From Pseudobutyrivibrio ruminis (GTDB lineage: Bacteria > Bacillota > Clostridia > Lachnospirales > Lachnospiraceae), in NCBI GenBank assembly GCA_015057305.1, contig SVES01000001.1:118588-182587 (forward strand): 64,000 nt of DNA, written 5' to 3'. Made by a program: the position numbers and the translations under genes. This document shows positions 8,908-19,111 of this stretch, piece by piece (within the stretch, counting starts at the first letter, position 1; every line of letters begins with the position of its first letter). Below the pieces are notes generated by a model. That model searched no databases. It worked only from the letters and a program-made list of their open reading frames with translations, and was not told the DNA's origin.

Positions 8908-11871
8908 TTAAAACATCTGGGAAATTACATCTATATAACCTCTTGCGATATTGTATAAAGCTTCAGTTTGAAGCTTATCATCCTTAGCATTCTCTATCTC
9001 TGCTTTTGTAAAATTTCCTACACTCCAATTGTATATATCAGATGCACTGATACCACTTTGCTGATTGAAGCTAAGGTTAAATGTAAAGCCTGTATTTTCT
9101 CGCATTATGGCTGCAATTTCATCAGCTGCGTTTTCAAACTTTTCGCGCATACTAGCTGTCTCGCAATCAACAGTTCCATTAACCTCTCCCGCCTCATAGT
9201 GGAAGGTAGTAGATATTGTGCCAGTAGACTGCAGGTATAGTGCCATCTTTATCAATCCAGACTCACCATTACCTCGAACAATTCTAAGGCTCATTGTTCC
9301 TGCCTCATCTGAAATCATCATTGGAATGTGATATGTCTCACCAGTATTTGCCATTTCTTCCATAGCTTTAGTTTGCTGTAAAACTAAACGCATTCCGTCC
9401 ATGTCAATTGTCCGAACATCTTCTGTCTCAATCATGGTTTTCATAACATTTTCGGCGAGAGTTCCCAATGCTTCCTGAGCCTCTGCCATTTCCTCAGGTG
9501 TATGACAAGCCTCTGCAAAACGAGAATAAGCCATATCGATTAAATCTTCTATTTCTAAGTCTTCTGGGACTTCATCAACCTCTCTTTCATTCATTACATC
9601 CATTCTCATACTAGCTGCTTTAGAAAACAAATCCTTCATGACTTTTCCATTGTTCTCTACGAGGGAAGCTACTGCTGCTATCATATTTGGAGATTGAGGC
9701 ATATTATATTCCTCTAAAATGCTTTCTACAGTTTCAATGGACTTAAAGCTTGCTTTTACCTGCTCTGTCACGTACTTATTGTAGGCAACTTCTGACTCTT
9801 CATCTAAAGCTGTCTCCATAGCTGTTGCAAATTCATCAGGATTCATATTCATAAAGCTATCTTCGCCAACTACCTTTAGCTTGGTAGGTGTCATAGCTTC
9901 TTTAGCATCTCTACACCTATCAGTCAGAAATACCTTTTCTATTTGCTCTGTAATTGATAAGTCCCTTACCACCATTTCATCTAGTTGGCCAAACTTATCA
10001 TTTATCTCATATTCCTGTCCAACGTGACGACTAGATCTTACAGCAGTCATAAGATTTCGCATTGTCACTTCTGTGCCTTGACTTATCAACGCACCAATAG
10101 CTGCACCATCAGACTTTTCCACCTGATGCAACAATCTATAAACACCTACATATGCATCTCGTTCAGCTTCACTTATCTTGGAATTATGCTCTGCCTTCCA
10201 TAAAAACCTTGCAAAGCTTTCTTCATCTGAGGAGCTTCCAAGCTCAGCCTTTATCTGCTCTGTTTTTGCCTTTAGTGCTTCCATTGTCATATCAAGAGGA
10301 TTGTCTCCTCGCTTAATCATTTCAGCAACCACAGCAGGTGTCATGTTCTTAAAAGTTCTTGCCACCATTTCTGTAGACGCTTTCATTCTAGTAACTGATT
10401 CAGCGTTTATATCCATCTGATTATAAGCAAGCACACGTACAGCTTTTTGGCTGGACTCTGTTGCCTCTATATTGAGTCCCTTCAAAATATCCTCTACGTT
10501 TTGGAAAGCTTTGCTCATGCTGTCTCCCAAGTCGGTTCTAACCTCTGTTCCCACAGATTCATAAGTCATTTCCATTCTAGAATATTCAGCTGTTACAGAG
10601 ACACTAACCTCATGTACATATGAAAATGTCTCGGCATTAATATTCGAAAATCTTCCAAGCATAGCTGCTGGGGCAGACTGAATATCTGCCATCTCATTCA
10701 TTACTTGCTTATAAAGATTTATGTTGGAATTTGTCGCCTCATTGTTTTCCCCATTCATGAGAATCTGTAGAAGATTTGTTTCCTGAAGCTTAAGCTTATC
10801 CAATAAATCAGTCAAATCATTTGTATTGACTTCAACACCATTTTTCATCATGGTAAAGGTTGCTTCAACTGTCATAGTCAACTGAATTTCAGTCAGTTGT
10901 CTTCTTGCAGTTATGGTAGGCAATGAATTAGCATCCATTCCCATTACTTCATCAAAAGTCATTTTTGCCTTATCCATTAAAGAATAACCGGGAATTAAAT
11001 AAGCATCTGTTGGCTCTTTACCTTCAGCCACAATATCGTCTATTGCATTTATAATATTTTCCTCAGATGGTTTCTCATAATCACCTAGTTCAACCATGTA
11101 CTCAAGATGTTCCTTAGTAATAGGAACATCTTGCTTCATCATGGCGGCCACCGTTTGTTTTAGTTCCTCTGGTGACAATGGTCTTTGCGCAGACTCTGAT
11201 TGTTCACTCTCTACTTGCTCTATAAGTGAATCTAACTTATCTCCTAATTTTTCAAGAAGACTTATAATGTCCTCATCTGTTGGTGTTCCTGCTCCACTAT
11301 CATTTACAGGCGCTGAGTATGTCGCATTATAAATATTTGAAATAGTTGGCTCCAACTCGTTCTTTACAAGATACGCCTGAGTTTCTACAGGAAGTGTATC
11401 AGAAAGTCCTCTTGTCATTTCTACAGCCTGAGCCATAGAGCTACTCATAGCCTGAATTTCATCAGTATCCAGCCCACCCATCTTGCTAATATCCTTGCCG
11501 GCCTTTGCAAGATTCATTTTTATCTCGTCAACTACTGTAACAATAGCCTCGGAATCCATATCCATTAGATTATGGCCCTCTTCCCTGGCTTTAGCTGTTG
11601 TCTCATCATCTAGGCCTCGTTCAATGTTCTTCACCTTATCTACTGTAGACATGCCAAGAGCTGATGCCTCGTTCACATCCTTCATGAACTCCTCATCAGT
11701 CATTTTTCCTCTATTATCATAAAAAGCATTATCCACCGATATTGATCTAAGTTCTATTTTTGAATTCGGTTTATTATCATCCTTGATACCGCTTGTGCCC
11801 ACTCCAAAGCCTTGGTCTGTAGCACCTTCTGTTTTAATGTAATCCGTTACCTTGAGTGCTTCTACTTGCAT
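8908..11871 (-). CDS. DUF6240-type protein with possible FliK-like C-terminal domain
   Basis: 987 aa, soluble, long helical body; C-terminus (MMISDEAGTMSLRIVRGNGESGLIKMALYLQSTGTISTTFHYEAGEVNGTVDC...) resembles a hook-length-control C-terminal domain; adjacent to flagellin. Confidence 0.5.
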   Translation of the reverse strand: MQVEALKVTDYIKTEGATDQGFGVGTSGIKDDNKPNSKIELRSISVDNAFYDNRGKMTDEEFMKDVNEASALGMSTVDKVKNIERGLDDETTAKAREEGHNLMDMDSEAIVTVVDEIKMNLAKAGKDISKMGGLDTDEIQAMSSSMAQAVEMTRGLSDTLPVETQAYLVKNELEPTISNIYNATYSAPVNDSGAGTPTDEDIISLLEKLGDKLDSLIEQVESEQSESAQRPLSPEELKQTVAAMMKQDVPITKEHLEYMVELGDYEKPSEENIINAIDDIVAEGKEPTDAYLIPGYSLMDKAKMTFDEVMGMDANSLPTITARRQLTEIQLTMTVEATFTMMKNGVEVNTNDLTDLLDKLKLQETNLLQILMNGENNEATNSNINLYKQVMNEMADIQSAPAAMLGRFSNINAETFSYVHEVSVSVTAEYSRMEMTYESVGTEVRTDLGDSMSKAFQNVEDILKGLNIEATESSQKAVRVLAYNQMDINAESVTRMKASTEMVARTFKNMTPAVVAEMIKRGDNPLDMTMEALKAKTEQIKAELGSSSDEESFARFLWKAEHNSKISEAERDAYVGVYRLLHQVEKSDGAAIGALISQGTEVTMRNLMTAVRSSRHVGQEYEINDKFGQLDEMVVRDLSITEQIEKVFLTDRCRDAKEAMTPTKLKVVGEDSFMNMNPDEFATAMETALDEESEVAYNKYVTEQVKASFKSIETVESILEEYNMPQSPNMIAAVASLVENNGKVMKDLFSKAASMRMDVMNEREVDEVPEDLEIEDLIDMAYSRFAEACHTPEEMAEAQEALGTLAENVMKTMIETEDVRTIDMDGMRLVLQQTKAMEEMANTGETYHIPMMISDEAGTMSLRIVRGNGESGLIKMALYLQSTGTISTTFHYEAGEVNGTVDCETASMREKFENAADEIAAIMRENTGFTFNLSFNQQSGISASDIYNWSVGNFTKAEIENAKDDKLQTEALYNIARGYIDVISQMF

Positions 11872-12048: not shown

Positions 12049-12225
12049 CTATGAACAATTCATGCTCATGGCTAATGATACTGTAGGCTGCTTTACCCCA
12101 TTATAGTTGTCATATATTTTCTTCAAATCTGCCGCTAAAAATCCTGGAAAACAAACGCACAATGTGGCAAAATCCATACCACAGCTACACATAGCCTCAA
12201 CAGCCCGTACATCCTGCTCCTTCAT
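12049..12225 (-). CDS. 58-aa Cys-rich microprotein
   Basis: MKEQDVRAVEAMCSCGMDFATLCVCFPGFLAADLKKIYDNYNGVKQPTVSLAMSMNCS; GGGAGG RBS before the internal ATG at 12225, so shorter than the tracked 91-aa ORF. Confidence 0.55.
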   Translation of the reverse strand: MKEQDVRAVEAMCSCGMDFATLCVCFPGFLAADLKKIYDNYNGVKQPTVSLAMSMNCS

Positions 12226-12381
12226 ACCGATACCTCCCAATACATATCTAGATACAATATCTAGCATCAACTTGAGTACTAGTATAACAATATCTTGTGA
12301 AAAAGCTATGTCCTTTATTAACAATTTTAAATATTATTTTTAGTATATTTTATACTTGCATATGTCACCAGCAATAAAAAA

Positions 12382-12404
12382 GCTCCCGTATCAACTACGA
12401 GAGC
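12382..12404 (-). terminator. Intrinsic terminator downstream of the lipoprotein gene
   Basis: Minus strand GCTCTCGTAgttgaTACGGGAGC followed by TTTTTT. Confidence 0.7.
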
Positions 12405-12422
12405 CTATTACTAATTTTATGA

Positions 12423-14363
12423 TTATTCTTCCTCAGTTGAATCTACATTTGTATATACATTCATTTCTATTCCAGAAAGCATTCCTCCTGGCTGAACCCA
12501 GAAAGTATACCATCCCTTGTCTATATCATAATTATAGTAATCAAGCTGAACACTGCCATTATCAAAGGACTCATCATCCTTTTCAAGGTCTCCATATAGT
12601 TCAATTAAATCATCAATTGTATATATTTCTAATTCAACACCGCCTGCGATAACAAATGGATACTCATCGTACTGATTATAGCCAAAAATTGTTGCTCGTA
12701 TATACTGAACAGGAATGTCCCCTAGCGCTACTTCTGTTTCCTCATGATTTACTACTGCAAAATTCATTTTGCTATATTCATTGCCTAAATAATAACCTGA
12801 AAATTCGTAAGATTCCCCTGCTGGAACCATAGTCTCTGGGCCATCCTCAAATACAAAACCTAAATCCACAAGCTGCTGATAAGAAATAGGTAACTGCATA
12901 GTTGTTCCATCAATCTGGAATGTAAAATCATCAAGGTTATCTGACAGTTCTACATCTGATTGTACTGCCTCTTTTCCATCCTCTCGGTATTTATACGATT
13001 TAGCTCTGATTGACATTGCATGTGAGTAATTGTATCGGTCTGGGCTTTCCTCTAAGAGCTTGTAATAGTTTTCTACAGCATCAACATTATTCATCAGTGT
13101 AACATACATGATGATAGAACCGACTTTGTCATCAACGTTTGATATGCTTATTTTACTATTGTTATAGCTTCCCGAAGAAATTGATACATCTATTGCATCA
13201 CCTGAACTGGTATTTTCGATTCCCATTTCTTCAAACACTTTTTTAGCGTCTTTAATCTTTGTGCCTGGCTTTATATCTCCTGGCAAAACAACATCTACAG
13301 AACCAATACCAGTAGAATCGATTACTTCTACCAAACCATATTCAACCTGATTATACTTTTCTGTAAGCCAAGTAGCTTCAAGTGTAATGGTTTTCGTTCC
13401 CTTCTTTAAGGTTATTTCCTCATCATTAGAAGTTAGCTCACTAGGTGCGTCTTCTATTTCCCAGCCGTTATCCATAAACTGTGTAATTGTACATGGCAAA
13501 TGATACAAATCACCATCTATCTCAACATTACCACTTGCTGGATTATCCCCTAATTCAACCGGTGCAATATATCCTGCAATAAATTCTGGTGTCTTAGAAG
13601 CTAGAGCTTCCATATCAGGCTCTTCTGGCATATCGTCGAAGAAGGTTGAATAGGTTTCCTTTGAAAGGTCCATATCATAATCTATAGCGTAAGCGCCATC
13701 ATAATAATCTGCCTGTCCCACGAATTCCTGCTGTGCAAGCATTCTAAGACCTATTCCAGTAGAATCTCCAACCTCACCTTTACCTACGTGATACATATAT
13801 CCTTTGACATAGTTATCTCCATAGTCATCAAAGCTTTCAAATTCCTGCTGAATCATCTTGGCAACTGGTACAGCATACATAAGGTATTCATCGAATTCCA
13901 TTTGTGATGTGCCATAGCTAGCTGCAAGAACTGCCTCTGCTGAGCCAAGATTATAGGCTCTTTCATAGCTTTCATCATATTTTTCATTTACCAGTTCTTC
14001 TACCTTTTTAATTGCATCTTCATTATCCTTTACAGATTGACTACTAAGATAACTTTTTGCAATATCAGAGTCACTAGAATCAAGCTCTGTTCCTCCGATT
14101 GTCTCCCAATCTAGTTCCTGGCCTTGAACCTCAACCGCATTTGTAGCTAAAAGCCATCTCACTAAATCGTAGCTTACATCACTTTCTGTACAACCCGAAA
14201 AAGAATCATCTACTAGAGAAATTTCTTCTAATTGCTTTTCCTCTTTTTCTTCTGTCTCTTGACTCTTTGCTGAATCTTCACTGACAGTAGCCTCCTTGCC
14301 ACAGCCTGCAAGCATCACCGCAGACATTAATAGAGCTGTGGCACTAACCATTTTTCTTTTCAT
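12423..14363 (-). CDS. Lipoprotein of unknown function
   Basis: Lipobox LLMSAVMLAGC after a Lys/Arg-rich N-terminus; 646 aa acidic extracellular part. Confidence 0.65.
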   Translation of the reverse strand: MKRKMVSATALLMSAVMLAGCGKEATVSEDSAKSQETEEKEEKQLEEISLVDDSFSGCTESDVSYDLVRWLLATNAVEVQGQELDWETIGGTELDSSDSDIAKSYLSSQSVKDNEDAIKKVEELVNEKYDESYERAYNLGSAEAVLAASYGTSQMEFDEYLMYAVPVAKMIQQEFESFDDYGDNYVKGYMYHVGKGEVGDSTGIGLRMLAQQEFVGQADYYDGAYAIDYDMDLSKETYSTFFDDMPEEPDMEALASKTPEFIAGYIAPVELGDNPASGNVEIDGDLYHLPCTITQFMDNGWEIEDAPSELTSNDEEITLKKGTKTITLEATWLTEKYNQVEYGLVEVIDSTGIGSVDVVLPGDIKPGTKIKDAKKVFEEMGIENTSSGDAIDVSISSGSYNNSKISISNVDDKVGSIIMYVTLMNNVDAVENYYKLLEESPDRYNYSHAMSIRAKSYKYREDGKEAVQSDVELSDNLDDFTFQIDGTTMQLPISYQQLVDLGFVFEDGPETMVPAGESYEFSGYYLGNEYSKMNFAVVNHEETEVALGDIPVQYIRATIFGYNQYDEYPFVIAGGVELEIYTIDDLIELYGDLEKDDESFDNGSVQLDYYNYDIDKGWYTFWVQPGGMLSGIEMNVYTNVDSTEEE

Positions 14364-14365
14364 TA

Positions 14366-15391
14366 CTATTTATCCTCCACTTCTAAATTTATTTCTCGCC
14401 CATATCTTTTTTCTATTTTTTGATAATAGCGTTTAGTTACCATTTCATCAATTGCATCTTCTATGTCATTTATGGTAATTGTTGCCTGATCTGTCTTTGT
14501 TTTCATTCTAAACATTTCACCATAATAATAACATTCATGAATTTCTTGGAAGCTTTCGTAATTCTGTTGTAATTCATTTTCTATATTGTAAAGTAATTGA
14601 TATGTCTCCTCACTTGTCAAATATCCACACTCATAAGATAATGCTATAACTCGCATTAATCTCAGGTAGTCATATCCCTTTAAGCCTTCCTCACCAAATC
14701 TTACATATGCGCAGGCTGTTGCCTTAACCTTGTAAAAATATCTTGTGGATATTCCATGCTCTTTAAAGTAGGTCTCGTTTATCTTTTTTGCATCAGCAAA
14801 AGAAAAATCTTTACCATAATCCTTCTTTATTGCCTTCACCGCTTTTCTTACATCCTCATCATCAAGGTATTCCTTGAAGCTTAACTGATGACCATATAAA
14901 AGAGTCTTATTTATTATTGCCTTAGCTGAAGCCCTATCGTAGATATCCCATGCTTTACTGAGAAAATATATTGTTTCATCATATACATCATCAGCCTCAT
15001 GTGCGGCTAAAATATCTGCATCCCCGTTTTCTAAGTACGCATACAATGATGTAGCATCAGCTCCCCATTTATAAATGGTCAGTGTTTTATCAAAACCAAC
15101 CTCATCATAGTAATTTCCATTCTCATCATATTCTACTAATAAATGGGAATATTGCTTTTCCATCTGACTTTTTAGGTTTTCATCCACATCCTCAGCTTCA
15201 TCTTCTTTAGCTACTTCTTCATCCAACCCTAAAGCCTCTGTTGATTCACTTGACGCTTCTTCATTTTCAGTAGATGGCTGATACTTTGCGATCTTATTTC
15301 TTGAATAATCCTTGCAGAATAAAATTAAGGCAAGAATTATTGCAGAAATTATAATTATTGAAAGAATAAGACCTAACTTATTTTTTATCAT
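14366..15391 (-). CDS. Membrane-anchored protein with DUF1266-like domain
   Basis: N-terminal TM helix; AWDIYDRASAKAIINKTLLYGHQLSF...YLRLMRVIALSYECGYLTSEETYQLLYNIENELQQNYESFQEIHECYYYG resembles the DUF1266 pattern. Confidence 0.5.
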   Translation of the reverse strand: MIKNKLGLILSIIIISAIILALILFCKDYSRNKIAKYQPSTENEEASSESTEALGLDEEVAKEDEAEDVDENLKSQMEKQYSHLLVEYDENGNYYDEVGFDKTLTIYKWGADATSLYAYLENGDADILAAHEADDVYDETIYFLSKAWDIYDRASAKAIINKTLLYGHQLSFKEYLDDEDVRKAVKAIKKDYGKDFSFADAKKINETYFKEHGISTRYFYKVKATACAYVRFGEEGLKGYDYLRLMRVIALSYECGYLTSEETYQLLYNIENELQQNYESFQEIHECYYYGEMFRMKTKTDQATITINDIEDAIDEMVTKRYYQKIEKRYGREINLEVEDK

Positions 15392-15459
15392 AATTAATTC
15401 ACCCTCTCGTTCTGGGTAGTATTATAATACTAACAATTTATTTTTGCAACACTAAAATA

Positions 15460-15480
15460 CCGCTTCAATATAGAAGCGGC
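15460..15480 (-). terminator. Intrinsic hairpin terminator after the TIR gene
   Basis: Minus strand GCCGCTTCtatattGAAGCGGT followed by ATTTT. Confidence 0.6.
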
Positions 15481-15486
15481 ATTTAC

Positions 15487-18400
15487 TTATTGAACCATAT
15501 ACTTAAGCTTTTGTAATTCTGAAAGCTCAGCATCCCCATATTTTGCCTTGACCTCTTTGATAAGGTCTTCCTGGGTTTTTACTTTAAATTCAAATAGGTT
15601 TGTACCAAATGCACTAACTATGGTCTGTGATTGTGGTATGTATAGTCTTCCATATTCAGCATGATCCAGCAAACCGTAAGAATTCAAATCAATAATGAAC
15701 ATATCATAATCATTATAAATTGATAAAGTATTACTTTCAGCATCATAGCAGCTATTTACCAAATCATTCATCTGCTCATCCATCAAAAATACCAGTTTTG
15801 ACTGCTGTCTATCATATATTTTGAAGTATAAATCATTCCCCTGTAGAAACAGTAGATTATTGTCATCAGAAAATTTCACGTAATCATAGCAATCACCATA
15901 ATACTCAACTACATTTTCTGTTTCTCCTGTTTCTAAATTCTCCACATATAGCTTGCCCTCGTTTGTAACAACAGCGATGATATTGTCATCATTACTTGGA
16001 AAGATGGCTTCTATTTTTTTACTCTTGTATATTTGTTTTGTTTTGGCTGTGCTTGAGTTTATTCTAAAGGCCTCACTTCCCACATTGATTCCGTAGATTA
16101 CTTTACCATCATTTGATATAGATAGGCTCCAGAATCGCATATCTGCCTCACCGCTGTAAACTATTTCTCTTTCTTTTGTATCAACAACATAATAGCTATT
16201 ATCATGGGTGAAAACTGCATACCTGTTATTATTTGATATGGCATAGTTTAATGTACCCATATCCTCAACCACCTGCAAAGTTTCTGCAGCTTTACTTTCT
16301 ATAGAATAAAAATGTAATCTACCATCGTATGTAGGTATCATTATAGTATCATCATCCAAGTAAACAGAATCTGCATATCGTGCATCATCTGCATTAATCT
16401 GGCCAATTTCCTCGCCTGTCTTTGTCTCAAATACTCGGCATATTACCGGATCCTCCATACTTCCGTCAGAAGTTTCTATAAGAAATGAATCTCCAGATGG
16501 ACTTGCTGTCGCTCCTCCATATACACCAGTTTCCATTTCGTATTTTACGATATAATCATCATCTGTCTTAAATTTCATTACCGTAAGATTTGGGCTTCTG
16601 AATCCCTTAGACACAAGAACCTGATTGCTATAATGAAAATCAATTAAAGAATCTGCAACATCTACAGTGAAGTTGTTATATATTGCACCTGTTATTCCAT
16701 CATAATAATAAAACTTACCATCTGATGTTCCTATTGACATTATTGCATTGTTAAGGCTTGCCATGATGTTTTCTATATAGCCGTTTGTTTTAACAGAGCA
16801 AATATCTTCTCCTGTTGACACATCTAATACATATAAATTTTGTATACCATTGACTAAAACCTGGGATATACTAGTGCCATCCAAATCAAATTCCCTTAAA
16901 ATCAAATGTGAATAGCTGGTGCTAAGAATATCCCCACCATAATACAGCTCTCTAGTCCATTTAATATCTCCTGTAAGAGGATCACACTTGGTAACAATCA
17001 TGTTGCAATCTTCGCCGCTAAGCAAATCATTATATCCCATGCAACTGACAACTATATCGCCATCTGAGGCAAAACCTCCTCCAATGTATACTGTTCGTTC
17101 AATTGGAATATCATGTATTTCGTCATTCTTCAAATCTATGCAGGTTACATAGTTTTGCTCATCATCATTGCCAGCGGTATGTTCAATTAACATCCTATCA
17201 TAGCTATCATCATAGGTTATCTCGTCACCGTAGGTTCCCTGTGTTAAATTATCATACCTTTTATATTCTTTTCCTGTAGCTGCATCAACCAATACTAAAT
17301 AATTATTAAACTTAAAGGTTTCATGGTCAAATGCGCTGATTGAAAGAGCTACATATTTGCCTTTAATATCCACATCCGCAAATGTTGCTTTTTCATCCAG
17401 CTTATACTCATAGCCAAGTGTGCCATCATCCTTGTAGCCTCTCACGAAATTATATGATGCGACTATTGCTAAATCTCCCGAATACCCTAAAGCAATTATC
17501 TTGTCCTCGTCCTCATCAATAATTTCGGTCTGCTTTTTAAATAGGCAATCACCTGTTTCCAAATCCCAAATATAGATAGAATTATCATTATCCTTTGATA
17601 CGGCTCTAGTGCCTTCTGTATTTAATGCAAAATCATCCACATTTACATCATGGGATAAAACTAAATCATGGGATAACTGGTTTCCAATATTATAGGTTCC
17701 TAATGCCTGGGAAAGTGCATATACTGAATCTGATACGTAGGGTCTACCGTTTTCTTCTGTAGAAAGCCCCTCCATTGCCACCAAAGCTGCTGTTTTGGAA
17801 TCTCCACTTTCTAGGATATCCAGTGATGTGGCCGCAAGAACCTTTGACTCATTTATAAGCTTTTGCTGATATTCTGCATTAATCTTGGACAGGTTATAGG
17901 CTGTGTAGGCTCCAAATAATACTGCAACTGCCGCAATTCCAGCTGCAATACTCACATTGCGCCTCATTTGCCTTTCTCTATGTCGCTGCTTTAAATCGTC
18001 ATAATCAACATGAAGAATTGATGCTGCTAATCGCAGAGATTCTGTTTTCAGTTTGCGTTTAACTTCTTTTTTGCTCGCACCTCTGACATCCGCCGCCAAT
18101 GGTTCTACTGGATTTCCGTTTTCATCAGTAAGAAGCTGTGGAGGAAATGAATCTGCTGGTTCCCCATCTACCAATACTGCAAGCACATTTTCTCTTCCGT
18201 GCATTGAAATGAAGGTATCTATTTCTTTCATTACCCAGTATGAATCTTTTGTTTGTGGGGAACAAATAACAACAAGAAAGGCTGCCTCTTGTAGTGCCGC
18301 CTCTATATTTGAACCCAGGTCGCTACCTATTGGCAGCTCCTCCTGGTCTCTGAATACTCTATCGATTTTCTTTCTACCGATTTCTTTTTGAATTTTTCTA

Positions 18401-18495
18401 GGAATTTTGGTAGTTTCCAGTGCTTTATGCACCCTCTTTGCCACAAACATGTCCCGCTCTAAATGTCTGTAGCTAATAAACGCATCATATTTCAT
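15487..18495 (-). CDS. TIR domain - TM helix - extracytoplasmic beta-propeller (WD40/YncE-like) receptor-like protein
   Basis: MKYDAFISYRHLERD...VFRDQEELPIGSDLGSNIEAALQEAAFLVVICSPQTKDSYWVMKEIDTF (TIR); Arg-rich RHRERQMRRN then TM VSIAAGIAAVAVLFGAYTAYNL; then repeated beta-propeller-like blades. Start corrected to 18495 (AAGGAAG RBS). Confidence 0.8.
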   Translation of the reverse strand: MKYDAFISYRHLERDMFVAKRVHKALETTKIPRKIQKEIGRKKIDRVFRDQEELPIGSDLGSNIEAALQEAAFLVVICSPQTKDSYWVMKEIDTFISMHGRENVLAVLVDGEPADSFPPQLLTDENGNPVEPLAADVRGASKKEVKRKLKTESLRLAASILHVDYDDLKQRHRERQMRRNVSIAAGIAAVAVLFGAYTAYNLSKINAEYQQKLINESKVLAATSLDILESGDSKTAALVAMEGLSTEENGRPYVSDSVYALSQALGTYNIGNQLSHDLVLSHDVNVDDFALNTEGTRAVSKDNDNSIYIWDLETGDCLFKKQTEIIDEDEDKIIALGYSGDLAIVASYNFVRGYKDDGTLGYEYKLDEKATFADVDIKGKYVALSISAFDHETFKFNNYLVLVDAATGKEYKRYDNLTQGTYGDEITYDDSYDRMLIEHTAGNDDEQNYVTCIDLKNDEIHDIPIERTVYIGGGFASDGDIVVSCMGYNDLLSGEDCNMIVTKCDPLTGDIKWTRELYYGGDILSTSYSHLILREFDLDGTSISQVLVNGIQNLYVLDVSTGEDICSVKTNGYIENIMASLNNAIMSIGTSDGKFYYYDGITGAIYNNFTVDVADSLIDFHYSNQVLVSKGFRSPNLTVMKFKTDDDYIVKYEMETGVYGGATASPSGDSFLIETSDGSMEDPVICRVFETKTGEEIGQINADDARYADSVYLDDDTIMIPTYDGRLHFYSIESKAAETLQVVEDMGTLNYAISNNNRYAVFTHDNSYYVVDTKEREIVYSGEADMRFWSLSISNDGKVIYGINVGSEAFRINSSTAKTKQIYKSKKIEAIFPSNDDNIIAVVTNEGKLYVENLETGETENVVEYYGDCYDYVKFSDDNNLLFLQGNDLYFKIYDRQQSKLVFLMDEQMNDLVNSCYDAESNTLSIYNDYDMFIIDLNSYGLLDHAEYGRLYIPQSQTIVSAFGTNLFEFKVKTQEDLIKEVKAKYGDAELSELQKLKYMVQ

Positions 18496-18511
18496 AACAT
18501 TCTTCCTTAAA

Positions 18512-19111
18512 TTATAGTTCTGTCCTACCATCAAGTGCCCTAAGCAATGTCACCTCATCTATGTACTCCAAGTTTCCGCCAACTGGAACGCCAGATGCTA
18601 TTCGGCTAACCTTTATGCCTGTAGGCTTTATGAGCTTGCTAATATAAGCGGCAGTAGTTTCCCCCTCCAAGGATGAATTAGTGGCAATAATTACCTCCTC
18701 AGCATCCACCTGCTGCAATCTAACCATTAGCTCTTTTAACTTTATATCGCCAGGTCCAATTCCCGCCATTGGGGATATGGCTCCATGTAACACATGGTAT
18801 ACTCCATCAAACTTACCCGTTTTTTCGTAGGCTGCCAAATCTCTAGTATCTTCTACAACCATTATGATATTTTGATTTCGCTTCGGATTTGAACATATTG
18901 GACAAAGCTCATCATCTGTTAAAGTGAAACATTGCTTACAATATCTAACATTTTTTCTAGCTTCAACAATGGCATTAGCCAGGTCATTTACCTTGTCCTC
19001 ATCCATTCCCAATATATGGAAAGCCAGCCTTTGGGCTGACTTACTTCCAATACTTGGCAAATCGCTAAGCTCTGCTATTAAATTGCTTATTTCTTTGCTG
19101 TAATATTCCAT
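18512..19111 (-). CDS. recR: Recombination mediator RecR
   Basis: LPSIGSKSAQRLAFHIL, CxxC zinc motif CKQCFTLTDDELCPIC, Toprim VVEDTRDLAAYEKTG. Confidence 0.95.
   Translation of the reverse strand: MEYYSKEISNLIAELSDLPSIGSKSAQRLAFHILGMDEDKVNDLANAIVEARKNVRYCKQCFTLTDDELCPICSNPKRNQNIIMVVEDTRDLAAYEKTGKFDGVYHVLHGAISPMAGIGPGDIKLKELMVRLQQVDAEEVIIATNSSLEGETTAAYISKLIKPTGIKVSRIASGVPVGGNLEYIDEVTLLRALDGRTEL

Follow-up and report, generated by a model that had tools for sequence, protein, structure and literature searches.

A predicted surface TIR receptor of Pseudobutyrivibrio with a propeller ectodomain, and its partner genes in relatives

The window analysed here, a stretch of 64,000 nucleotides from a Pseudobutyrivibrio genome, encodes on its minus strand a protein of 1002 amino acids (15487..18495; ATG at 18495, stop at 15487) with a predicted TIR domain, transmembrane helix, stalk and double β-propeller. 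We give roughly even chances to the reading that this protein is an outside-in receptor, the TIR domain of which makes an NAD-derived messenger. In many relatives the receptor gene adjoins a gene for a DHH phosphodiesterase, and in a few it adjoins a gene for a channel-like protein with an RyR domain. These partners point to a bacterial nucleotide signalling pathway that runs from the outside to the inside of the cell.

Architecture of the receptor and comparison with known systems

The TIR domain (aa 1-136, 18088..18495, minus strand) matches the Pfam families TIR_2 (6.5e-11) and ThsB_TIR (7.7e-8), both above the gathering score, and is predicted to be cytosolic. Hydropathy identifies a single transmembrane candidate, aa 181-199 (17899..17955, minus strand), which follows the Arg-rich stretch QRHRERQMRRN and has six lysine or arginine residues before it and two after it. 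The AlphaFold model, calculated from a 57-sequence alignment (mean pLDDT 89.5, pTM 0.74), contains the TIR fold at residues 3-136, a continuous helix 165-229 that would cross the membrane and go on as a stalk, a helical neck (stalk and neck together aa 200-264, 17704..17898, minus strand), and β-strands from residue 270 to 971 (15583..17688, minus strand). We read the strands as about 14 blades in two propellers, predicted to lie outside the cell. WD40 and propeller families of Pfam match aa 270-940, each below its own cut-off, and the best Foldseek matches of the model are tandem WD40 propeller proteins. The strand pattern and these matches both fit four-stranded blades in closed rings, as in WD40-type propellers.

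The initial annotation had described an N-terminal TIR domain, an Arg-rich stretch, one transmembrane helix and propeller-like repeats, and all of these are present by Pfam, hydropathy and AlphaFold. Its placement of the TIR domain inside and the propeller outside, by the positive-inside rule, agrees with the charge bias and the modelled helix. With one transmembrane helix, the positive side towards the TIR domain and an ectodomain beyond, the protein is predicted to be a single-pass surface receptor.

The glutamate of the WxxxE motif is the catalytic residue of plant TIR domains. E91 of the receptor (18223..18225, minus strand), which lies in WVMKE and is the putative catalytic residue, aligns with this glutamate in L6, AT1G72930 and Roq1, so that the Glu of SYWVMKEID, for which the initial annotation had proposed such a comparison, is of the catalytic type. 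W87 and E91 are invariant in two alignments of family homologues, with 28 and 57 sequences. Every prokaryotic TIR domain examined requires the equivalent glutamate, and crowding increases activity (PMC7282519). NADase activity of the receptor TIR domain is thus likely. The TIR fold, by Pfam and AlphaFold, and the WxxxE glutamate are shared with the prokaryotic TIR NADases, reportedly the type described by Essuman and colleagues in 2018, whereas the receptor architecture sets the window protein apart from them.

Toll-like and IL-1 receptors are likewise single-pass proteins with a cytosolic TIR domain and an extracellular sensor. The window receptor differs from them in the reverse order of domains, with the TIR domain N-terminal, in having propellers where they have leucine-rich repeats or Ig domains, and in the NADase-type glutamate of its TIR domain. 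The likeness appears to be one of plan only, and common descent is not claimed. With Thoeris, the receptor shares a TIR domain related to ThsB (PF08937, above the cut-off), and may share a signal of the cADPR type. It differs from Thoeris in being membrane-bound with an ectodomain and in having no adjacent ThsA. Since ThsA, with SIR2/STALD or another reader, is absent from the neighbourhood, a Thoeris identity was rejected, as had been concluded initially. A search for STALD in the own genome gave no match, and the same search matched no control genome either.

The PADLOC and NCBIfam defence models gave no whole-protein system match for the receptor, only weak matches to the TIR domain. Phage records held no receptor match and plasmid records only partial ones; carriage by phages or plasmids was rejected because neither holds a full-length homologue. 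Searches of the open-licence literature yielded no account of this receptor family together with DHH or RyR-channel genes; an earlier description elsewhere is possible.

Genomic setting in Pseudobutyrivibrio

The host genome, of Pseudobutyrivibrio type (Lachnospiraceae), is an 89% complete draft that totals 3.42 Mb over 113 contigs. The order of genes on the minus strand is dnaX-ybaB-recR, receptor gene, DUF1266 gene and lipoprotein gene. The start codon of the receptor gene is 16 nt from the recR stop (recR 18512..19111, minus strand), as noted initially, and a good ribosome-binding site is found there. The DUF1266 gene (14366..15391, minus strand) encodes 341 amino acids, with a PF06889 match (2.9e-20) and an N-terminal signal anchor or transmembrane helix (aa 8-26), in line with the membrane-anchored protein of the initial annotation. 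The lipoprotein gene (12423..14363, minus strand; 646 aa) starts 2 nt further on, also as stated there, and its product indeed has a lipobox (LAGC, aa 18-21). This lipoprotein is internally duplicated towards its C terminus and carries a DUF1266 domain of its own (PF06889 5.6e-7, aa 98-200), the second at the locus; both proteins score above the gathering threshold of this family. Both downstream proteins are therefore predicted extracytoplasmic DUF1266 proteins. Against the PDB, the two gave matches at chance level only. According to profile searches, the genome has one TIR_2 gene, and no DUF1266 genes other than these two.

Between the receptor and DUF1266 genes lies a terminator-like hairpin (15455..15484, minus strand) of 12 bp, with -17.6 kcal/mol (z -5.2) and a stability equalled by none of 200 shuffles. 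Directly behind it, and 5' of the DUF1266 gene, is the promoter-like match TTGCAA-17-TATAAT (15421..15449, minus strand); matches of this kind occur in the region in the number expected by chance, and this one is plausible by position only. Neither the hairpin nor this site is mentioned in the initial annotation. From the hairpin and this site, two transcription units are expected, with the receptor gene read together with recR and the DUF1266 pair read from its own promoter. Another terminator-like hairpin is located 3' of the lipoprotein gene (12380..12406, minus strand).

In Pseudobutyrivibrio, cargo that varies between genomes lies between recR and the DUF6240-flagellin locus (12049-18512 in the window; L094-L116). 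This site is framed by recR on one side, and by a small conserved ORF (12049..12225, minus strand) with the DUF6240 and flagellin genes on the other. The site contains neither a TIR gene nor another large insert in G018, G022, G010, G026, G009, G003 and G028. It holds an LXG-TNT toxin-type gene in G025 and, in G015, a gene that resembles the latter in length and arrangement. FHA/trypsin/kinase genes occupy it in G019, as gene arrangement suggests for G008 too, and a DUF1266 protein with metabolic genes is encoded there in G004. Lysozyme-like GH25 and transposase-family genes are among the contents elsewhere in the genus. The small ORF encodes about 58 amino acids with several cysteines; in many members of the genus it marks one edge of the site, and in G004 it is accompanied by a diverged second copy. 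The DUF6240 protein (8908-11871) beside flagellin has a weak Flg_hook match (0.079) and may be a FliK-like hook-length protein. In G014 and G017, its gene lies in the opposite orientation.

The receptor gene is present in 14 of 29 genus genomes and directly follows recR in 4 of these 14. A functional coupling of recR and the TIR gene was rejected, because the cargo in this gap varies between genomes and the TIR gene lies elsewhere in other members, for example between nrdD and an ABC transporter. The three-gene module proposed in the initial annotation fared unevenly. In G021, the TIR, DUF1266 and lipoprotein genes are tightly packed (gaps of 12 and 5 nt) and operon-like, with three extra genes at the site, and in G001 the TIR gene is followed by a DUF1266-lipoprotein fusion. 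Most relatives lack the module: in G027 the TIR gene stands alone between recR and the DUF6240-flagellin locus, in G012 the TIR and lipoprotein genes are both at the cargo site with other cargo between them, and in G019 they are about 40 kb apart, again with other cargo between them. The lipoprotein is absent from 9 of the 14 TIR-bearing genomes. Where it occurs, it is accompanied by the TIR gene (5/5, p = 0.017), whereas DUF1266 is not enriched with the TIR gene (p = 0.46); the genomes are related, and neither count is phylogenetically independent. The three genes are associated, though loosely. A generally conserved three-gene operon was thus rejected, and the unit is retained for the own genome, G021 and G001.

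Partner genes across the receptor family

Among GTDB species genomes, a scan identified at least 526 encoded relatives of the receptor, and the best 79 loci, nearly all from Lachnospiraceae, were taken for neighbourhood analysis. Among these best 79 of at least 526, a gene of about 504 codons for a DHH/DHHA1 protein lies within three genes of the receptor gene in 46 loci; the next commonest neighbour family reaches 11. The DHH gene is directly adjacent in 39 of the 79, on the same strand in all 39 and upstream in 31; the intergenic distance ranges from -35 to 87 nt and is a 4-nt overlap in six cases. Outside the genus, 9 genomes have both genes against 2.7 expected (p = 1e-4), and in all 9 the two are within about 6 kb. 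The linkage extends across the whole receptor tree, including deep branches, but no adjacent DHH gene on the same strand was found in the window or in its Butyrivibrio/Pseudobutyrivibrio clade. The family-wide partners, which the initial annotation did not identify, are the DHH phosphodiesterase or the RyR-domain channel-like protein.

The DHH and DHHA1 motifs are all invariant in 36 partner sequences, and the folds nearest to the model of the partner (pLDDT 87.9) are those of the TM1595, NrnA and GdpP phosphodiesterases. Compared to these, the partner has an extra, β-rich C-terminal domain (aa 327-502), for which no sequence match was found in the PDB, and its gene shares an operon with that of a TIR receptor. 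The best-known substrates of DHH enzymes are pApA, pAp and c-di-AMP, not ADPR. The idea that the DHH gene is a single core locus merely joined by the TIR gene is unsupported, as DHH genes without a TIR gene have different neighbours in different lineages. The own genome has an unlinked DHH homologue (G000:C18:14663-16189, 54% identical), and in the genus such homologues are present irrespective of the TIR gene. In the lineage of the window, where linkage is absent, the DHH protein may therefore act otherwise. In two other loci (L129:12099-13952 and L130:4938-7274), TIR-trypsin-like fusions are encoded near a TIR receptor and a DHH gene.

In five loci (L214, L219, L226, L233 and G086), the receptor gene adjoins a channel-like gene with a C-terminal RyR domain (PF02026). 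The domain scores above the cut-off in L219 and G086 and below it in L214 and L226, and is presumed in L233 from 72% identity to L226. In L214, L219, L226 and L233, there is no DHH gene alongside. The RyR-adjacent receptors occupy four separate positions in the tree, with L226 and L233 counted as one. The same domain forms the repeat of animal ryanodine receptors and is found in phage RyDEP (RyR/R12) proteins. In the channel-like partners, by contrast, it follows a channel-like part with two transmembrane segments, beside a TIR receptor gene, and ligand binding is putative. Phage RyR-domain proteins bind 2'cADPR and 3'cADPR with nanomolar Kd, and one of them hydrolyses both (PMC13232231). The receptor is encoded in 5 of 13 genomes with RyR genes and in 29 of 145 overall, an enrichment too weak to use, so that the argument for a link between RyR protein and receptor rests on adjacency. 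A genome search detected no RyR gene, and hence no receiver for a messenger, in the own genome (89% complete), which counts against the messenger reading. In another Lachnospiraceae genome (L272:4000-10532), a TIR-TPR protein, of different TIR architecture, is encoded divergently from two RyR-domain proteins.

Ectodomain variation and possible roles

Within the genus, the TIR domain is 76-97% identical to that of the window receptor, and the propellers are mostly 28-58% identical, with 68-73% reached in G027, the nearest relative. In close receptor pairs from separate lineages, identity falls at aa ~350-550. For the G012 and G019 receptors, dS is 0.08-0.31 over aa 1-400, saturated over aa 401-560, 2.2 at aa 561-640, and 0.4-0.9 from there to aa 960, compared to 0-0.34 for dnaX (about 0.1) and the lipoprotein gene of the same pair. 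The jump inside the propeller region against lower values on both sides indicates that the diverged segment was probably exchanged by recombination. From identity profiles and dS, the hypervariable segment covers aa ~350-640 (16576..17448, minus strand). In Butyrivibrio FCS014, tandem paralogues are nearly identical from the TIR domain to the transmembrane helix (dS 0.08-0.19), whereas their ectodomains have diverged (dS 0.45-1.2). The average dN/dS of the receptor is well below 1 (at most about 0.25 per domain), a value that does not in itself point to positive selection. In many ordinary receptors, too, the ectodomain diverges faster than the cytosolic domain. Two unusual homologues may be mentioned. 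One, of 1437 amino acids (L138:7687-12000), has by eye an apparent Ser/Thr-kinase-like region before a degenerate TIR-TM-propeller part; the other, an approximately 814-aa TIR protein (L273) of the 243 kb plasmid pNP243 of Butyrivibrio fibrisolvens D1, is related over the TIR-TM part.

From the computed fold, topology signal, invariant glutamate, partner linkage and exchanged segment, we infer the following course of events. A rigid helical stalk would keep the double propeller outside the cell, where it would bind or be perturbed by a factor at the surface, and this would gather TIR domains at the inner face of the membrane. The gathered domains would cleave NAD+ to ADP-ribose or an isomer of cyclic ADP-ribose. 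The DHH phosphodiesterase encoded in the operon of many relatives would remove the product, and in some relatives it would be read by the RyR-domain ion channel. In the lineage of the window, the two DUF1266 surface proteins would be optional accessories, possibly co-receptors that present a ligand. Candidate stimuli are phages, toxin-bearing neighbours or the state of the envelope; because the ectodomain changes fast and the distribution is patchy, we favour a role in conflict. It is possible, and here we are tentative, that the system as a whole is receptor-driven cADPR signalling with a recombining, immune-receptor-like ectodomain, in which RyR channels read the signal and a dedicated DHH enzyme ends it, the receiver having been exchanged or lost in the window.

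A rather unlikely alternative is suicidal defence, with phage adsorption or a contact toxin sensed at the surface and the TIR domain depleting NAD+ to stop or kill the cell. This would need no separate receiver and so would account for the fact that none is encoded nearby. It is in line with the patchy presence in 14 of the 29 genomes, with the recombining, hypervariable sensor segment, and with the location in the variable cargo site, where sister genomes have an LXG-TNT toxin locus or further genes open to exchange. The DHH phosphodiesterase linked to the receptor in relatives, however, fits messenger turnover better than plain NAD+ depletion, no phage or plasmid record has a full-length homologue, and no known system was matched. 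We regard it as similarly unlikely that the protein is an ordinary signalling or scaffold receptor, the TIR domain of which only recruits other proteins in response to a chemical signal or one from the envelope, with no NAD chemistry and no part in defence. TIR domains are able to serve as scaffolds, the gene is located beside housekeeping genes and under purifying selection overall, and known defence models match the TIR domain only weakly. Yet the invariance of W87 and E91 in 57 homologues points to conserved chemistry, and the recurrent linkage with phosphodiesterase and RyR-channel genes also argues against a mere scaffold. Finally, the TIR domain could regulate the DHH enzyme in a c-di-AMP/pApA or nanoRNA pathway instead of making a messenger. 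The nearest folds of the DHH partner are phosphodiesterases for just these substrates, but we consider this very unlikely, since it leaves unexplained both the invariant glutamate and the alternative partner, the RyR channel, whose domain family has cADPR-binding members.

The best-known bacterial TIR systems respond to intracellular signals. A widespread surface TIR receptor, with at least 526 relatives, the best 79 loci of which are nearly all from Lachnospiraceae, many of them of the rumen or gut, would extend TIR signalling outward and raise the question of what such cells sense. Through the DHH and RyR-channel partners, the nucleotide-messenger pathway of our preferred reading, that of an outside-in receptor with an NAD-derived messenger, can be tested directly. 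Whether bacterial RyR-domain channels may be gated by TIR products is a question that parallels the long debate about cADPR and the ryanodine receptors of animals.
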